Below, piece by piece: positions 10,460-17,340 of a stretch of DNA of 64,000 nucleotides. The DNA is from Agreia pratensis. GTDB taxonomy: Bacteria; Actinomycetota; Actinomycetes; Actinomycetales; Microbacteriaceae. Position 1 is the first letter of the stretch. Each line of letters opens with the position of its first letter. The stretch lies in NCBI RefSeq assembly GCF_900177685.1, contig NZ_FXAY01000003.1, positions 248,001 to 312,000 on the forward strand, written 5' to 3'. The notes beneath the pieces are model-generated. The model ran no database searches, had not been told where the DNA came from, and saw nothing but the letters and a program-made list of their open reading frames with translations. A program made the translations under genes and the position numbers.

Positions 10460-11803
10460 GTGACACCCCCTCCCTCCGACCCGTTTCCCGTAACCGCCCC
10501 GATGCCCGTTCTGAGTTCGGCACCTCCGTGGAAAGACACCTTCTCCTCCCTGAGAGTCCCCAACTTCCGACTCTTCACCTCGGCCAACATCGTCGCCATG
10601 ACAGCTCTCTGGATCCAGAGGATCGCCCAGGACTGGCTGGTGCTCGAGCTCTCCGGAAGCGTCGCCGCAGTCGGGCTGACCGTCGCGTTGCAGTTCGCAC
10701 CGATGCTTTTTCTGGGGCTGTACGGCGGTGTTCTGGTCGACCGCTACTCGAAGCGGATGCTCTTGGCGATCACTCAGAGCGTCTCGCTGCTCGCCAGCGT
10801 GGCGCTGGCGGTGCTCGCGCTGACAGGAGTCGTCGAGGTGTGGCACATCATGCTCGTCGCTCTGGTCGTGGGCCTGGCGACGGTGATCGACAACCCCACG
10901 AGGCAGGTCTTCGTCAACGAACTCGTAGGGCCGAAGTATCTGCGCAACGCGATCAGTCTGAACTCGTCCGTCTTCCAGCTCGGCGCGCTGATCGGGCCGG
11001 CGATCGGTGGCGTGCTGCTCGTCTCGGTGGGAGCCGGCTGGTCGTTCGCGATCAACGCCGTGGCGTGCCTTGGCGTCGTCATCACGGTCTTGAGACTCAA
11101 TCCTGCGACCCTCTACCCTGCTCCCGTCGCGCCGCGGGCGAAGGGGCAGCTGAAAGAGGGTCTGTCTTACGTCCTCGCCAAGCCCACGATTCTCTGGACT
11201 GTGGTGATGGTGGCATTCGTCGCGGTCTTCGCCCTGAATATGCCCGTGCTGCTCGCGGCCTACGCCTCAGACGTCTTCGACAGCGGCCCCGGGGGATACG
11301 GCCTTTTCAATTCCCTCGTGGCTGTCGGCGCATTGGCCGGCGCCGTGCTCTCGACACGGCGCACGAGCATCCGGCTTCGCGCCGTGGTCATCACGGGTCT
11401 CGCGTGGGGAACCATCCAAGCGATCGTCTCCGGCGCACCCACCGAGCCCGTTGTCTGCGTATTGCTCGTTCTGGTCGGATTCTGCACGCTGCAGTTCCTC
11501 ACGGGCGCGAATCAACTGATCCAACTCTCCAGCAACGTGTCTATTCGTGGTCGCGTCATGTCGGTCTACGTGCTGGTGCTGCTCGGTGGCCAGGCGCTCG
11601 GCGGCCCTCTCATGGGGTGGCTCGTCGAAAGCTATGGCCCACAGTTCGGCATGCTCGTGTCGGGAGTGGTTCCGGCTGCGGCGGCACTGGTCGTCGGCGT
11701 GCTTCTCGCTCGAAGCGGCAGATTCACCGTCCGACTGCGTCGGCGGCTGCCGCTGGTCGCCATCGTGCAGCACCAGCAGACCGGCTCGCGCGCGATCTGC
11801 TAG
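10460..11803 (+). CDS. MFS transporter (EntS-like)
   Basis: A 447-residue twelve-helix major facilitator protein. The first helices carry NFRLFTSANIVAMTALWIQR and the loop GGVLVDRYSKRM, again the MFS_3 exporter type; it is related to, but clearly different from, the exporter at 8078. A tail of about 35 residues rich in arginine follows the last helix. Control by the adjacent divergent LysR protein is likely from the layout. The GTG at 10460 is used; an internal ATG at 10502 would remove a proline-rich N-terminus of 14 residues and is also possible. The stop codon overlaps the -10 hexamer of rpsO. Confidence 0.85.
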   Translation: MTPPPSDPFPVTAPMPVLSSAPPWKDTFSSLRVPNFRLFTSANIVAMTALWIQRIAQDWLVLELSGSVAAVGLTVALQFAPMLFLGLYGGVLVDRYSKRMLLAITQSVSLLASVALAVLALTGVVEVWHIMLVALVVGLATVIDNPTRQVFVNELVGPKYLRNAISLNSSVFQLGALIGPAIGGVLLVSVGAGWSFAINAVACLGVVITVLRLNPATLYPAPVAPRAKGQLKEGLSYVLAKPTILWTVVMVAFVAVFALNMPVLLAAYASDVFDSGPGGYGLFNSLVAVGALAGAVLSTRRTSIRLRAVVITGLAWGTIQAIVSGAPTEPVVCVLLVLVGFCTLQFLTGANQLIQLSSNVSIRGRVMSVYVLVLLGGQALGGPLMGWLVESYGPQFGMLVSGVVPAAAALVVGVLLARSGRFTVRLRRRLPLVAIVQHQQTGSRAIC

Positions 11804-11806
11804 AAT
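11801..11806 (+). promoter_or_regulatory. Candidate -10 element of rpsO
   Basis: TAGAAT, overlapping the stop codon of the MFS gene. It would give rpsO its own transcript with a leader of about 85 bases. No good -35 box lies 17 bases upstream. Confidence 0.45.
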
Positions 11807-11814
11807 CTCAAGGT

Positions 11815-11880
11815 TGCCGTCTAACGGCCGCGGATAAAGAGAGCCCGCACATACTGTGTCGGGCACCGCGCAATGAGGAG
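11815..11880 (+). promoter_or_regulatory. Structured rpsO leader
   Basis: Two hairpins can be drawn before the rpsO ribosome-binding region: GCCG/CGGC around a TCTAA loop near 11817, and GCCCG plus CACA pairing with TGTG plus CGGGC at 11843-11864 with one bulge. S15 represses its own translation through leader structures in several bacterial phyla; that this leader does so is inferred from position and structure only. Confidence 0.4.
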
Positions 11881-11897
11881 AAAGGGGATCACCAACT

Positions 11898-12167
11898 ATG
11901 GCTCTTGAAGCTGATGTCAAGAAGGCGATCATCGAAGAATACGCAACCCACCCCGGTGACACCGGATCCCCCGAGGTCCAGGTCGCGATGCTCACGCGTC
12001 GCATCAAGGACCTCACGGAGCACCTCAAGGAGCACAAGCACGACCACCACTCGCGTCGTGGACTCCTGCTTCTGGTCGGACAGCGTCGCCGCCTGCTGGG
12101 TTACCTGGCCGACGTCGAGATCGAGCGCTACCGCGCACTGATCGAGCGTCTGGGCCTGCGTCGATAG
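11898..12167 (+). CDS. rpsO: 30S ribosomal protein S15
   Basis: An 89-residue primary-binding protein of the small subunit platform that contacts 16S rRNA helix 22 and forms a subunit bridge. The full family pattern is present: [38 protein letters not shown] and [12 protein letters not shown], and the length is exactly typical. GAGGAGAAAGG precedes the ATG. In most bacteria rpsO is next to pnp; here pnp begins 2.9 kb downstream behind five other genes, and a strong terminator follows rpsO directly. Confidence 0.98.
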
Positions 12168-12186
12168 TTCGCCGCACTTCTTGACG

Positions 12187-12220
12187 ATGGGCCGTTCTCT
12201 TCTCTAAGAGAACGGCCCAT
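12187..12220 (+). terminator. Intrinsic terminator after rpsO
   Basis: A perfect 15-bp stem, ATGGGCCGTTCTCTT pairing with its complement, around a CTCT loop, followed by TCGTATTTCC. It ends the rpsO transcript and uncouples it from pnp. Confidence 0.85.
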
Positions 12221-12280
12221 TCGTATTTCCACGCCCGATCCGACCGCGTGTGTAACCGCGCACGTCTCTAGGCGGGGCGA

Positions 12281-12568
12281 TCAGACGCGATCGTCGTCGC
12301 CGAGCTCCGCAGCGCTCTCGGCTTCGTAGTCCTCGTCGTCGAGATCATCGTTCGTCTCGTTGGGATCGTCGATCTGCAGGGTGTCGATGTCGTTCTCGAC
12401 TCCGAATTCCGTGTCGGCTCCGTCGAGAAGGCCTTCGTCGAGGCTCTCTTCATCGTCGACGGACGGGTCGCCCGGATTCGTGAATTCCGCATCGCCTCGG
12501 CCGTCGAGTTCACTCGAGACCTCGAGCAGATCTTCTTTGTTGTATTCGTCTCGTTCGCTGTCAGTCAT
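12281..12568 (-). CDS. Acidic hypothetical protein
   Basis: A 95-residue protein very rich in Asp and Glu, with no hydrophobic segment and no cysteine. It looks largely disordered, with short repeats of the D-D-E/E-S-L-D type. I do not recognise a family. Support for it being a gene: TAGAGT ends exactly six bases before the ATG, the same leaderless layout as its neighbours, and its codons carry the high third-position GC of the region. It is divergent from the VanZ-like gene and opens the block that separates rpsO from pnp. Confidence 0.6.
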   Translation of the reverse strand: MTDSERDEYNKEDLLEVSSELDGRGDAEFTNPGDPSVDDEESLDEGLLDGADTEFGVENDIDTLQIDDPNETNDDLDDEDYEAESAAELGDDDRV

Positions 12569-12630
12569 ATCTCGACTCTAGAACAGTGAATGCACACTTC
12601 CCACCAAGACTTGTGCGGCAGGATCGACCC

Positions 12631-13098
12631 ATGTTCCGACGCCATCCCGTGCTCTCCGTTCTCACGGTGCTCTATCTGGCGGGAGTGGGCTGGGTCACCC
12701 TGGGCCCGGAGCCCTACGATGACGGAACGAGCAGCATCCTGTGGCGCTTTCTCGACTTCTTCGGCCGCTATGAGGCGACCGACTGGATCACGTTCGACCG
12801 CGTCGAGTTCGTTGCGAACATCGCCATGTTCGTGCCCTTGGGCATCTTCTTCGTGCTTCTTTTCGGCCGTCGGCGCTGGTGGCTCGCAATTCTTCTGTGC
12901 TGTGGCATCTCGTGCGCAATCGAGATCTGGCAGGGCGCACTTCTCCCGACGCGCGTCGCCGATCTGGCCGACATCGCAGCGAACACGTCTGGTGGCACGG
13001 TCGGCGTGCTGCTCGGTGTCGTGCTCATGTCGATTTCGTTGGCGCGGCGTGGTCGCCGCAAGCGTGTTCGCGCACGAGCCGCGCAGGCGCTTGGATAG
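12631..13098 (+). CDS. VanZ-like family membrane protein
   Basis: A 155-residue protein with about four hydrophobic segments, matching the small VanZ domain. The pattern VEFVANIAMFVPLGIFFVLL, then CCGISCAIEIWQGALLPTR and ADIAANTSGGTVGVLLG is characteristic of the family. VanZ gives low-level teicoplanin resistance in enterococci, but most chromosomal homologues have no known role. The ATG at 12631 is preferred (CAGGAT ends six bases upstream); a longer frame starts at 12586. The arginine-rich tail is probably cytoplasmic. Confidence 0.8.
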   Translation: MFRRHPVLSVLTVLYLAGVGWVTLGPEPYDDGTSSILWRFLDFFGRYEATDWITFDRVEFVANIAMFVPLGIFFVLLFGRRRWWLAILLCCGISCAIEIWQGALLPTRVADLADIAANTSGGTVGVLLGVVLMSISLARRGRRKRVRARAAQALG

Positions 13099-13102
13099 AC
13101 GC

Positions 13103-13534
13103 ATGAGATTTCTTTCCTTCGGTCGCGTCAACAACCCAGAACTCGCGAAGACCGACCAGGGCTCGGGCTCGCTCGACGACTACCTGTACGACCTGGTACC
13201 GCGCAACCAGAAGGTGCGCATCCAGCTGGCCGACAGCGACCCTTGCCAGGACGCGCTGCGAGCCGTCCTCGATCAGGGAGTGACCGAGACCGAGGCTTTC
13301 ATCTCGAGACGAAGCGCAGCCGACGAGAGAACGGATGCGCCGACGCCCGTGCGGCTCTTTGTGAATCAGCGGCCCACCCCGGTCGTCGGCTTCGTTCCCC
13401 GTGGCCTTGAGGCCCCTGTCGAAGCTGCCCTGGGGCGGCTGGCCGACTCGGGTAAATCCACTCGCATGCAGGCGACGATCCGTCAGACCAAGAACGGTCT
13501 GCGGGTCGATCTGGCGGTCGGTCTGACTCGCTGA
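13103..13534 (+). CDS. GFVPRG-family protein, paralogue A (unknown function)
   Basis: A 143-residue soluble protein I cannot name. It contains GSLDDYLYDLVPR at about 22-34 and a C-terminal core at about 75-125 with PVRLFV, GFVPRGLEAPV, a helix LGRLADSGK and GLRVDL. The next two genes share this core, so they are tandem paralogues. The order (beta strand, G-[FY]-[VL]-P-R-[GE], alpha helix, G) recalls HIRAN-type DNA-binding domains; this is only a resemblance. The ATG at 13103 is preceded by TTGGAT and six bases, as in its sisters. It starts four bases after the VanZ stop. Confidence 0.75.
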   Translation: MRFLSFGRVNNPELAKTDQGSGSLDDYLYDLVPRNQKVRIQLADSDPCQDALRAVLDQGVTETEAFISRRSAADERTDAPTPVRLFVNQRPTPVVGFVPRGLEAPVEAALGRLADSGKSTRMQATIRQTKNGLRVDLAVGLTR

Positions 13535-13591
13535 TCCCGATTCGGGCAACTCGATCTTCCCTCTCGAACTCCGGGGGAGTTGAATGACCCT

Positions 13592-14017
13592 ATGGTCATC
13601 GGTGATCGGAGCGGTTCGGGTGTTCCCGACAGGCATGATTCGGGCGCGGGATCCCTCGCCGACTACACCTACAACCTGTTTCCCCGATTCGCGGGTGTCA
13701 TCCTGAGGGCGGCCGGAAGCATGCCATTCCAAAGTGAGTTGGCCGAACTGCGTGAGTTGCCTGATCGTCCGGCGGAGGCATTTGTCGAACGTCGGCCTCC
13801 GGCTGACGATCGCGTCGACGCGCCGATGCCGGTGCGCCTCTGGGTCGGCTCGGAGTTGAGCGGCGTCATCGGATTCGTACCACGCGGACTAGAGGCACCG
13901 GTCGACGCCTGCCTCGGACGGCTTTCAGACAGAGGCAAGGCGCCTCGCATCCCGTGCTCCATCGTCTCCACTCGACATGGACTCCGCGTCGACCTTCGAA
14001 TGGGTCGGGCGTACTGA
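13592..14017 (+). CDS. GFVPRG-family protein, paralogue B (unknown function)
   Basis: A 141-residue soluble protein, the closest relative of paralogue A. AGSLADYTYNLFPR aligns with its N-terminal motif, and DAPMPVRLWV, GFVPRGLEAPVDACLGRL and HGLRVDL align along the C-terminal core. The middle part, about residues 35-60, has diverged. The start is taken as the ATG at 13592, six bases after TTGAAT, the same spacing as in A and C; a TTG at 13580 is in frame but lies inside that hexamer. The function is unknown. The gap to A is 57 bases. Confidence 0.75.
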   Translation: MVIGDRSGSGVPDRHDSGAGSLADYTYNLFPRFAGVILRAAGSMPFQSELAELRELPDRPAEAFVERRPPADDRVDAPMPVRLWVGSELSGVIGFVPRGLEAPVDACLGRLSDRGKAPRIPCSIVSTRHGLRVDLRMGRAY

Positions 14018-14057
14018 GCGGTCCATTTATCGGGTGTGGACATGCTTGGATTGAACA

Positions 14058-14696
14058 ATGCCCGCACCTCGCCGAAAGCTCTCCGTCTTCGCGTGGGAAC
14101 CGTTTCTTCTCGGCCTCGTGATCCTTGCCGCCTTGGCTGCGTCCATGACGGTGCGTCTTCCTGTGGTCGGCACGGTCGTCGGCGCAATCTCCATCGCCGT
14201 CGCCCTCCCGGCGATCGTGCAGCTCGTGCGCCTTGGGCTCAAGAGCGGGGGAGAGCGCAATTCGGCATCGCGGCTCGCGAGGCTCGACGGCTTCCAACTG
14301 CGTGAGGTTCACGTAGACGGAGTCCTCATGCTCGACGAGACCAATCGGCGCCAGGATCCCATCGACCTCGCCCTCGGCTGGACCGATCCTGCGCTCACCG
14401 TGGTTCTCTGGCCCGGAGCGACCCGATGGCTTGGCCGCGAGCTGCGTGTCGAGGCGTATTTCTTCGGCGGCCCGAAGCCCGCTCGCGCGGGATTCCTGCC
14501 CCGCGGAACCGAGGCATCCATCGGCGAGGCCTTAGAGAAGCTGCGCGATGAGGGCGTGCTCGCGACAGTACCGGCGCGGGTCTTCGGCGACGGCAAGCTG
14601 CCCGATCCGTCGAGGCCCTTCACCCGACTCGCCCGCCCACTCACGGTCGAGGTCGGGCGACCCGCCGACGGAGCAATCGACGCTATCCGGCCGTAG
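14058..14696 (+). CDS. Membrane-anchored GFVPRG-family protein, paralogue C
   Basis: A 212-residue protein with two hydrophobic segments at about 12-32 and 36-57, then a soluble part. The core GFLPRGTEASIGEALEKLRDEG at about 138-158 (described here by its ends) corresponds to GFVPRGLEAPV...LGRLADSG of paralogues A and B, with LRVEAYF as the preceding strand. The family resemblance is weaker than between A and B. It may be the membrane-bound member of a small set acting at the envelope. TTGGAT lies six bases before the ATG. I know no function for it. Confidence 0.7.
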   Translation: MPAPRRKLSVFAWEPFLLGLVILAALAASMTVRLPVVGTVVGAISIAVALPAIVQLVRLGLKSGGERNSASRLARLDGFQLREVHVDGVLMLDETNRRQDPIDLALGWTDPALTVVLWPGATRWLGRELRVEAYFFGGPKPARAGFLPRGTEASIGEALEKLRDEGVLATVPARVFGDGKLPDPSRPFTRLARPLTVEVGRPADGAIDAIRP

Positions 14697-15066
14697 GGAG
14701 TCCATGCCTGCTAAGATCGGCCTGTTGCCCCTTGTGAGCAACGAGAACAAATAAATACACGAGCATCAAATGCGGAGCAGGCCGGCAGGACGCTGGTCAC
14801 CGGTGGTGGGTTTCGGAACGCGAATGAGGCGGTCCGAGGTTTTCTACTGTTGGCCAGACATGCGCCCCATGCTCTGATGGTTCTGACGAATCCCTCGAAT
14901 CCCTCGGATTCGACAAGGCGCGTACGTGCACGGGTCTCGCAATCGGCGAGTGCCCGCATGTCGCTCTGTCACCCCACTCCGCTGTACGCATCGCGAGAGC
15001 CCACACGGGGCCGCGAATTCTCTTCGCCTGCATGGCGAGAGACAACACATAAGGAGAAACCCCCAT
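14697..15066 (+). promoter_or_regulatory. Non-coding pnp leader and upstream region
   Basis: These 370 bases hold no convincing gene. Visible structure: TAAGAT at 14711, a possible -10; an 8-bp hairpin TCGAATCC/GGATTCGA at 14895-14913 embedded in a direct repeat GAATCCCTC; and a bulged 8-bp hairpin at 15020-15041 just before the pnp Shine-Dalgarno AAGGAG at 15051. Long structured leaders are usual for pnp, which controls its own mRNA through leader processing in E. coli; the same here is inferred. Confidence 0.5.
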
Positions 15067-17340
15067 ATGGAGGGTCCAGAAATCAAATTCGCCGAAGCCG
15101 TTATCGATAACGGCAAGTTCGGCACCCGCACGGTCCGCTTCGAAGCGGGACGTCTGGCACAGCAGGCACAGGGCGCCGTCGCGGCCTACCTCGACGAGGA
15201 AACCATGCTGCTGAGTGCCACCAGCATCGGAAAGCACCCGAAGGACAACTTCGACTTCTTCCCGCTCACCATCGACGTCGAAGAGCGCAGCTACGCCGCG
15301 GGAAAGATCCCCGGATCGTTCTTCCGACGCGAGGGACGTCCCTCGACCGAGGCCATCCTGGTCTGCCGTCTGATCGACCGCCCCCTGCGCCCGTCGTTCG
15401 TCAACGGTCTCCGCAACGAGGTCCAGGTCGTCATCACGGTGCTCAGCATCGCTCCCGACGAGTTCTACGACACCCTGGCGATCAACGCGGCCTCCGCGTC
15501 GAGCCAGATCTCGGGCATCCCCTTCTCGGGTCCCATCGCCGGCGTACGCCTGGCACTGATCGGTGACCAGTGGGTCGCCTTCCCCAAGTACTCGCAGCTC
15601 GAAGAGGCCGTATTCGACCTCACCGTCGCCGGCCGCGTCGTCACCGACGCCCAGGGCAACCAGGACGTCGCGATCATGATGGTCGAGGCCGAGGCCACCG
15701 AGAACAGCTGGAACCTGATTCAGGCCGGCGCCACGAAGCCGAACGAGGAGATCGTGGCGCAGGGCCTCGAGGCCGCCAAGCCGTTCCTCAAGCAGCTCGT
15801 CGAGGCCCAGGCCTCGCTCGCCGCGCAGGTGAACAAGCCCGTCCGCGAATACCCCGTGTTCCCCGCCTACAGCCAGGCCGGATATGACGCGGTCGCCGAA
15901 CTCGCCTACGACGAGCTCGTCTCGATCTACCAGATCGCCGACAAGACCGAGCGTCAAGATGCAGATGACGCACTGAAAGAGCGCGTCAAGATCGCCATCA
16001 ACGAGAAGGTCTCCGCAGGCGAACTGTCGGGCGACATCCCGCCGATGGTCTCGGCCGCATACAAGTCGGTCACCAAGACCGTCGTCCGCGGTCGCATCCT
16101 CACCGAGGGTGTGCGCATCGATGGTCGTGGCCTCGCCGACATCCGTCCGCTCGATGCCGAGGTTCAGGTGATCCCGCGCGTGCACGGTTCCGCCATCTTC
16201 CAGCGCGGTGAGACCCAGATCCTGGGCGTCACCACGCTGAACATGCTCAAGATGGAGCAGCAGATCGACTCGCTGAGCCCGATCAAGAAGAAGCGCTACC
16301 TGCACCACTACAACTTCCCGCCCTACTCCACCGGAGAGACGGGTCGTGTCGGTTCGCCGAAGCGCCGCGAGATCGGGCACGGCTTCCTGGCCGAGCGCGC
16401 GATCGCACCCGTGCTTCCGAGCCGCGACGAGTTCCCCTACGCCATCCGCCAGGTCTCCGAGGCTCTGGGCTCCAACGGCTCCACGTCGATGGGTTCCGTC
16501 TGCGCCTCGACCCTGTCGCTGCTGAACGCCGGTGTGCCCCTGCGCGCACCCGTCGCCGGTATCGCAATGGGCCTCGTCTCCGACACAATCGACGGAGAGA
16601 CCCGTTACGCGGCCCTCACCGACATCCTCGGTGCCGAAGACGCTCTCGGTGACATGGACTTCAAGGTTGCTGGAACCAGCGATTTCATCACCGCGATCCA
16701 GCTCGACACGAAGCTCGACGGTCTGCCCACGAGCGTGCTCGACGGCGCCCTGAAGCAGGCGAAGGCCGCGCGCACCGCGATCCTCAACGTCATCAACTCC
16801 GCGATCGACGCTCCCGACGAGATGGCACCGACCGCGCCTCGCGTCATCAGCGTGCAGATCCCCGTCGACAAGATCGGTGAGCTGATCGGCCCGAAGGGCA
16901 AGACGATCAACTCGATCCAGGACGAGACCGGCGCCGACATCTCGATCGAAGAAGACGGAACCGTGTACATCGGTGCCGTCGACGGCCCCTCTGCCGAGGC
17001 CGCTCGCGCCCAGGTCAACGCGATCGCCAACCCGACCAACCCCGAGGTCGGCGAGCAGTTCCTCGGAACCGTCGTCAAGATCGCGACGTTCGGTGCGTTC
17101 GTGTCGCTGCTCCCGGGCAAGGACGGCCTGCTGCACATCTCCGAGGTGCGCAAGCTCGCCGGTGGCAAGCGCGTAGAGAACGTCGAAGACGTGCTCGGCG
17201 TCGGCCAGAAGATCCTGGTCGAGATCACCAAGATCGACGACCGCGGAAAGCTGTCGCTCGCTCCGGTCGTCGCTGACGAAGCCGACACCGAGGGCTCCGC
17301 TGCAGCCAGCGAAGGACCCGACGCTCCGGCCGAAGGCTAG
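15067..17340 (+). CDS. pnp: Polyribonucleotide nucleotidyltransferase (PNPase)
   Basis: A 757-residue 3'-5' phosphorolytic exoribonuclease of the degradosome; in actinobacteria it can also add 3' tails. Two RNase PH domains (about 15-230 and 335-560) flank an all-alpha linker. [25 protein letters not shown] lies in the first domain and the second carries the catalytic [22 protein letters not shown] region (named here by its core SMGSVCAST). KH domain ([16 protein letters not shown]) and S1 domain ([24 protein letters not shown] area) end the protein. The ATG at 15067 follows AAGGAG by eight bases; the open frame extends further upstream without a ribosome-binding site. Confidence 0.97.

Follow-up and report, generated by a model that had tools for sequence, protein, structure and literature searches.

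The window analysed here, a stretch of 64,000 nt from Agreia pratensis, carries three consecutive genes, which we denote A, B and C, in the interval between rpsO (11898–12167, forward strand) and pnp (15067–17340, forward strand). Gene A (13103–13534, forward strand) starts with ATG and encodes a 143-aa protein that we read as soluble and HIRAN-like. Gene B (13592–14017, forward strand) encodes a 141-aa protein placed by the tree as a paralogue of A; an ATG stands at the position aligned with its ATG 13592 in six of the six Agreia B genes compared, and an alternative in-frame start, TTG 13580, is possible. Gene C (14058–14696, forward strand) encodes a 212-aa protein for which hydropathy and model predict two transmembrane helices, followed by a putative HIRAN-like domain. 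The preliminary description of this DNA, made from the letters alone, had reported the three open reading frames, with the motifs they share, in a 2.9 kb block separating rpsO from pnp; coordinates and motifs were confirmed, and the block, from the end of rpsO at 12167 to the start of pnp at 15067, measures 2,899 bp.

A VanZ-like membrane protein is encoded directly upstream of A (12586–13098, forward strand; Pfam VanZ, E 7.1e-20), with a start that may instead be ATG 12631. This gene ends 4 bp before A, and the A-B and B-C gaps are 57 bp and 40 bp. Because of this tight spacing VanZ-A-B-C is likely an operon, of which the VanZ-like gene would be a possible first member. A search for sigma-70-type promoters in 11800–15200 returned no match, which is uninformative since only 0.4 would be expected by chance. 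Between C and pnp lies an Actino-pnp RNA-like element (14792–14858, forward strand; Rfam RF01688, 38.7 bits, E 5.3e-6), scoring below the Rfam gathering score of 47.7, a cut-off reached at one (L156) of the ten other Microbacteriaceae loci searched; given this element, pnp may have its own leader. By eye, a perfect 13-bp inverted repeat (12189–12218) just 3' of rpsO looks terminator-like with a poor T run, and the terminator scan did not report it. The interval also holds, on the reverse strand, a gene for a small, very acidic protein outside the A/B/C family (12281–12568), which has no Pfam match and is matched in five other Agreia loci (L036–L040).

All three genes are coding and evolve under purifying selection. 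Over 15 pairs from six Agreia genomes the mean dN/dS was 0.08 for A, 0.10 for B and 0.21 for C, the figure for B being rough because dS exceeds 1 in some B pairs. In the closest Agreia records gene A is 90–94% identical.

The three proteins share a common ancestry and form one protein family, as judged from sequence comparison. Over 125 aa, 50% of the residues are the same in A and B (E 5e-41), and pairwise BLASTP links C to both only weakly (A-C 1e-4, B-C 3e-5). At the profile level, hhalign aligned the A/B family with the C family over 115 columns with a probability of 96 and E 4.8e-9 (3.4e-10 when 36 C-type rows were used), pairing nearly all of A with the soluble part of C, whereas the best alignment of any other type reached 0.03 against the A family among 59 alignments tried. 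The earlier proposal that the three genes are one family thus holds, and their cores, which would have had to be separated had the profiles proved unrelated, belong together.

In an unrooted tree a single branch (100/99) separates eight C-type rows from all A/B rows. Inside the A family, seven B rows form a single group (100/100) that lies near Agreia A, its exact place being weakly supported (88/78 and 82/0). By this topology B is a local paralogue of A, seen only in Agreia among the genomes examined. A recent origin of C by duplication of A or B was also considered, but both the tree and the wide distribution of C-type genes speak against this.

Both types are spread through the Microbacteriaceae. 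The A profile matched at least 77 of 299 genomes of the family, with 76 strong matches and one (7.0e-4) set aside, and the C profile matched at least 68 of the 299, of which 39 were strong (8.2e-35 or better) and the remainder stood at 9.1e-8 or worse, some of them falling at A-type genes; as these searches scored the best 10–13 candidates per genome, the counts may be low. The 39 strong C matches, in nine other genera, begin at profile position 1–5 and so include the helices. The preliminary description had C gaining membrane helices; helices are indeed predicted, but since the same ones occur in those nine genera, they were not gained inside Agreia.

By hand count, at least 11 of the 299 genomes have both types (six Agreia and five of genus g8), against about 10 expected if the two were independent, so that mutual exclusion of A and C gives no signal and was rejected. 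A fragmented, 96% complete genome of the genus Agreia (G005) has a C-type gene adjoining rpsO and no A or B match. Neither type was found in 195 of the 299 genomes (hand count, best 10–13 candidates per genome), and we therefore propose that A, B and C would be accessory factors. Among 297 genomes of the order, the A profile found the window's own genome alone, and the C profile gave five weak matches outside the Microbacteriaceae. When 84,980 genomes were scanned with a single peptide pattern, 69 A-type loci emerged, all in records labelled as Microbacteriaceae or actinobacterial with one exception, a contig labelled Acidobacteria (L086). That contig carries an A gene and rpsO, its A gene groups with a Microbacteriaceae gene in the tree, and it is probably mis-binned. 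Viral contigs held no relative detectable with the A and C profiles, and plasmids no match to A or C by tblastn; these results, together with the conserved chromosomal position, speak against cargo of a mobile element.

That position is shared far beyond Agreia. We examined the 69 A-type loci with 6 kb flanks (five of the 69 are Agreia) and found rpsO and/or pnp beside the gene in 46. Where found, rpsO was always upstream and co-directional (35/35) and pnp always downstream and co-directional (24/24); the 23 loci with neither gene within the flank include several short contigs and four Subtercola loci. For the C type we used 20 regions from nine other genera and one more from one of these genera, picked before synteny was viewed, and all 21 have rpsO and/or pnp, again with rpsO upstream and co-directional (17/17) and pnp downstream and co-directional (17/17). 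In one genome (G014) C lies between rpsO and pnp and a Subtercola-like A lies elsewhere on the chromosome. Because relatives occupy the same chromosomal spot in many Microbacteriaceae, A and C are long-standing residents by rpsO/pnp in this family and not a recent insertion. The block had been proposed to be a lineage-specific addition with repeated duplication. Inspection of the rpsO-pnp interval across the Microbacteriaceae goes against the first part for A and C, which lie by rpsO/pnp in 46 of 69 and 21 of 21 loci, and what stands of the proposal is the duplication that gave B in Agreia.

We lean towards reading this residence as positional only, with A and C kept by rpsO/pnp through descent and having no functional tie to the ribosome or to RNA turnover. 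Unrelated genes recur at these loci too, an LLM-type flavin oxidoreductase near the A-type gene in 40 of the 69 loci and an FMN-reductase-like gene in 26 (L036–L104; both named by eye), and the hairpin seen by eye 3' of rpsO, taken with the Actino-pnp-like leader of pnp, implies that co-transcription with rpsO/pnp is not required. However, order and direction are identical at every A or C locus where rpsO or pnp was found, whereas several other clusters of neighbouring genes run mostly on the other strand. A purely positional link is compatible with either of the two readings of the ligand site discussed below. A direct role in RNA turnover with PNPase, to which gene position would point, is possible. 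The literature searched held no paper joining rpsO, pnp and Microbacteriaceae, or a HIRAN domain with Microbacteriaceae or with polynucleotide phosphorylase.

HIRAN domains are small beta-barrels capped by helices; they act as DNA-end readers in replication-fork remodelling, and the pocket of human HLTF holds the end of a DNA strand. The preliminary description had recognised no named family and had likened the core of the three proteins to HIRAN-type domains. In single-protein scans A, B and C indeed stay below every Pfam and NCBIfam cut-off. Pfam HIRAN (PF08797; cut-off 24.7 bits) was listed at E up to 10 for none of 63 A/B rows and none of 11 C rows, in scans whose HMMER filters discard most matches above 0.1, and it matched in none of eight genomes of the genus. 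The same scans gave weak matches to other families, DUF5719 in 4 of the 63 A/B rows (best 3.5e-4) and Trp_oprn_chp over the C helices (0.0049). Sequence searches of the PDB, whether started from A by itself or from the C profile, returned nothing.

Profile comparison was more informative. We gathered canonical HIRAN domains by Pfam searches of 20 and 197 genomes and chose by eye, as clean actinobacterial domains, seven of twelve loci; the resulting profile can fairly serve as a reference, since in the PDB it recovers HLTF and lp_0118. Against it hhalign gave 7.7e-5 for the C family (3.3e-6 with 36 C rows), 0.0019, weak alone, for the A family, and 0.0018 for a mixed alignment (A4). Adding three further HIRANs improved these values to 5.3e-9 for C and 1.1e-5 for A, a gain that is partly circular because the added HIRANs had been retrieved by the C profile. 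As a decoy control, which with the original seven HIRANs is free of this circularity, we used 59 alignments from neighbouring genes, four of A/C type and 55 others (a few families occurring twice). The four A/C-type alignments were the top four against both HIRAN sets, with values against the original seven of 8.9e-7, 2.3e-4, 2.3e-3 and 2.4e-3 versus 0.0085 for the best other; the best of the 55 against the second set reached 0.0033. Reversed HIRAN controls gave 0.2–0.5. These comparisons support homology to HIRAN at the profile level, with a clear margin for the C family and a modest one for the A family.

The C profile, built without any HIRAN, points the same way. Of its five weak matches outside the Microbacteriaceae, the three that cover the core of the soluble domain are all HIRAN proteins, two of them exceeding the Pfam cut-off of 24.7 bits and the third, at 23.8 bits, falling just short of it; the two other matches lie mainly in the helix and linker part. 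Like the HIRAN domains (PF08797; HLTF, PDB 4XZF and 5BNH; lp_0118, PDB 3k2y), with which they show profile similarity over 65–92 columns, A, B and C have the element order helix, strand, loop, strand, strand with G[FY].P, helix, strand. Unlike them, A and B have an additional N-terminal D.G.GS..DY motif and C has membrane helices.

The AlphaFold2 model of A (mean pLDDT 88.0, pTM 0.81) contains five strands of at least three residues, shorter strand pieces, two long helices and two short ones. The HIRAN fold is described in PMC4666394 as a six-stranded beta-barrel with two helices over it. In the model of C (mean pLDDT 72.1, pTM 0.55) N-terminal helices at residues about 10–30 and 35–63 precede a domain at about 80–202; the models of A and C are not independent, since the C alignment consisted of six C rows and 32 A/B rows. 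Both hydropathy and model support two hydrophobic helices in C, a pair that has positive charges ahead of its first helix and behind its second. By the positive-inside rule, positively charged flanks face the cytoplasm, and the domain of C, whose helix pair they flank, is therefore probably located in the cytoplasm.

Foldseek searches against predicted viral proteins (BFVD) placed a HIRAN-annotated protein at rank 1 for A (probability 1.00, E 1.0e-3; TM 0.47/0.39, rmsd 12.3 over the whole alignment) and a second one at rank 9 (probability 0.35). For C, HIRAN-annotated proteins came at rank 2 (probability 1.00, E 4.6e-4, TM 0.42/0.50, rmsd 2.9) and rank 4 (probability 0.82), the top match being a phage protein with a DNA-binding domain (E 1.6e-4). 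The TM-scores to HIRAN-annotated viral models are modest (0.29–0.50). In the PDB nothing matched A with an E of 0.001 or lower, and the best 50 of 497 matches contained no HIRAN; the PilB/GspE-type ATPases at the top, with TM about 0.2, were judged to be noise. Profile ranking, retrieval by the C profile and viral fold matches thus support the HIRAN-type core proposed earlier, with the Pfam cut-off missed.

The residues that would line the pocket differ from those of HIRAN. In the HLTF study, Y72 and Y93 are reported to flank the cavity that takes up the dinucleotide, and among the changes tested the 90/91 double change alone fully impaired function (PMC4666394). We scored the corresponding N..D pocket-loop motif, the region of HLTF N90/N91 and Y93, at up to 34 residues before the GY core. 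It is present in ten of ten HIRAN rows and absent from all 75 A/B rows and from all 28 C rows that could be scored (8 of the 36 C rows have no anchor pattern). The same stretch is strongly conserved in other residues: R70 (74/75), E75 (67/75), D78 (75/75) and R84 (75/75) in A/B, and W124 (33/36) and R130 (35/36) in C, residues that are placed at the HIRAN loop through profile alignments and not through superposed coordinates. With N..D absent and other residues fixed, the DNA-binding mode of HLTF is therefore not expected. As both the Pfam cut-off and the N..D motif were tested and neither was reached, we do not assign A, B and C as HIRAN proper, from which they differ also in their conserved residues.

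The explanation we favour, with somewhat better than even confidence, is that A, B and C represent two divergent HIRAN-superfamily branches whose ligand site has probably been remodelled. The pocket would have been re-tooled for another ligand and not lost, and the likeliest ligand would be a nucleic-acid end or another phosphate-bearing molecule, which A and B would recognise in the cytoplasm and C at the membrane's inner face, with the four genes presumably expressed as the VanZ-A-B-C operon suggested by their spacing.

A less probable alternative, which we hold to be unlikely but serious, is that the HIRAN-like scaffold is a pure protein-protein adaptor whose nucleic-acid pocket was lost and whose conserved residues bind a partner protein, with C drawing such a partner to the membrane; A or the VanZ-like protein might be that partner. 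The absence of N..D in both branches fits this idea, as does the VanZ-like gene, found no more than about 150 bp from A or C in the window, in its five Agreia relatives (L036–L040), in the A-type loci L044 and L046 and in the C-type loci L152, L154 and L156. PMC8262856 and PMC11706625 treat bacterial HIRAN domains in the context of HipA-type modules and diDNases, and the former reports actinobacterial HipN as an exception in which most DNA-contact motifs are not kept. However, the stretch is not eroded: each branch has near-invariant residues of its own there, which is what a ligand site would be expected to show. Moreover, a VanZ-like gene was found in no more than 12 of the 69 A-type loci and 5 of the 21 C-type loci. 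That the three proteins are unrelated to HIRAN, their strand-GF.PRG-helix-strand core being convergent, is improbable: A has no PDB fold match, the Pfam cut-off is missed and the A-family profile score is weak alone, but the profile ranking with controls, the HIRAN proteins retrieved by the C profile and the high ranks of viral HIRAN models in the fold searches with A and C all argue against it.

The HIRAN domains of HipN and HipL, bacterial as those proposed here, are joined to HipS-like or kinase domains, whereas A, B and C have no such partner domain. No HipA-type partner gene was seen by eye among the 25 commonest neighbour clusters of A-type or of C-type loci. Neither A, B and C nor the VanZ-like and acidic proteins matched a PADLOC model at E up to 1, and a PHROGs scan gave nothing for A and B and a single match at 0.65 for C. 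With no defence-model match and no partner seen, an anti-phage or toxin-antitoxin role was rejected. The closest parallels to C are three proteins (L179, L180 and L181) that likewise have a HIRAN domain in a protein with hydrophobic segments, a TM2 domain in L181 and, by eye, N-terminal hydrophobic stretches in L179 and L180. Unlike C, they keep the N..D motif and come from other actinobacterial families, outside the Microbacteriaceae; no rpsO or pnp was noticed by eye in their short loci. By eye, L179 and L180 each seem to contain another HIRAN-like repeat in degenerate form, and an integrase-like gene is seen close to L180.

A far-reaching version of the reading with a re-tooled pocket would make A/B and the membrane-tethered C a pair of RNA-end sensors coupling PNPase or the translation machinery to the inner membrane face. 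We regard it as very improbable; if true, a DNA-end-binding barrel would have been re-tooled for RNA turnover in the Microbacteriaceae. Independently of this, genes without a named family match here now receive a name, and the content of the rpsO-pnp interval in many Microbacteriaceae is now described. With the fold seemingly kept and the DNA loop residues replaced, these genes may offer a natural test of ligand change in a HIRAN barrel.
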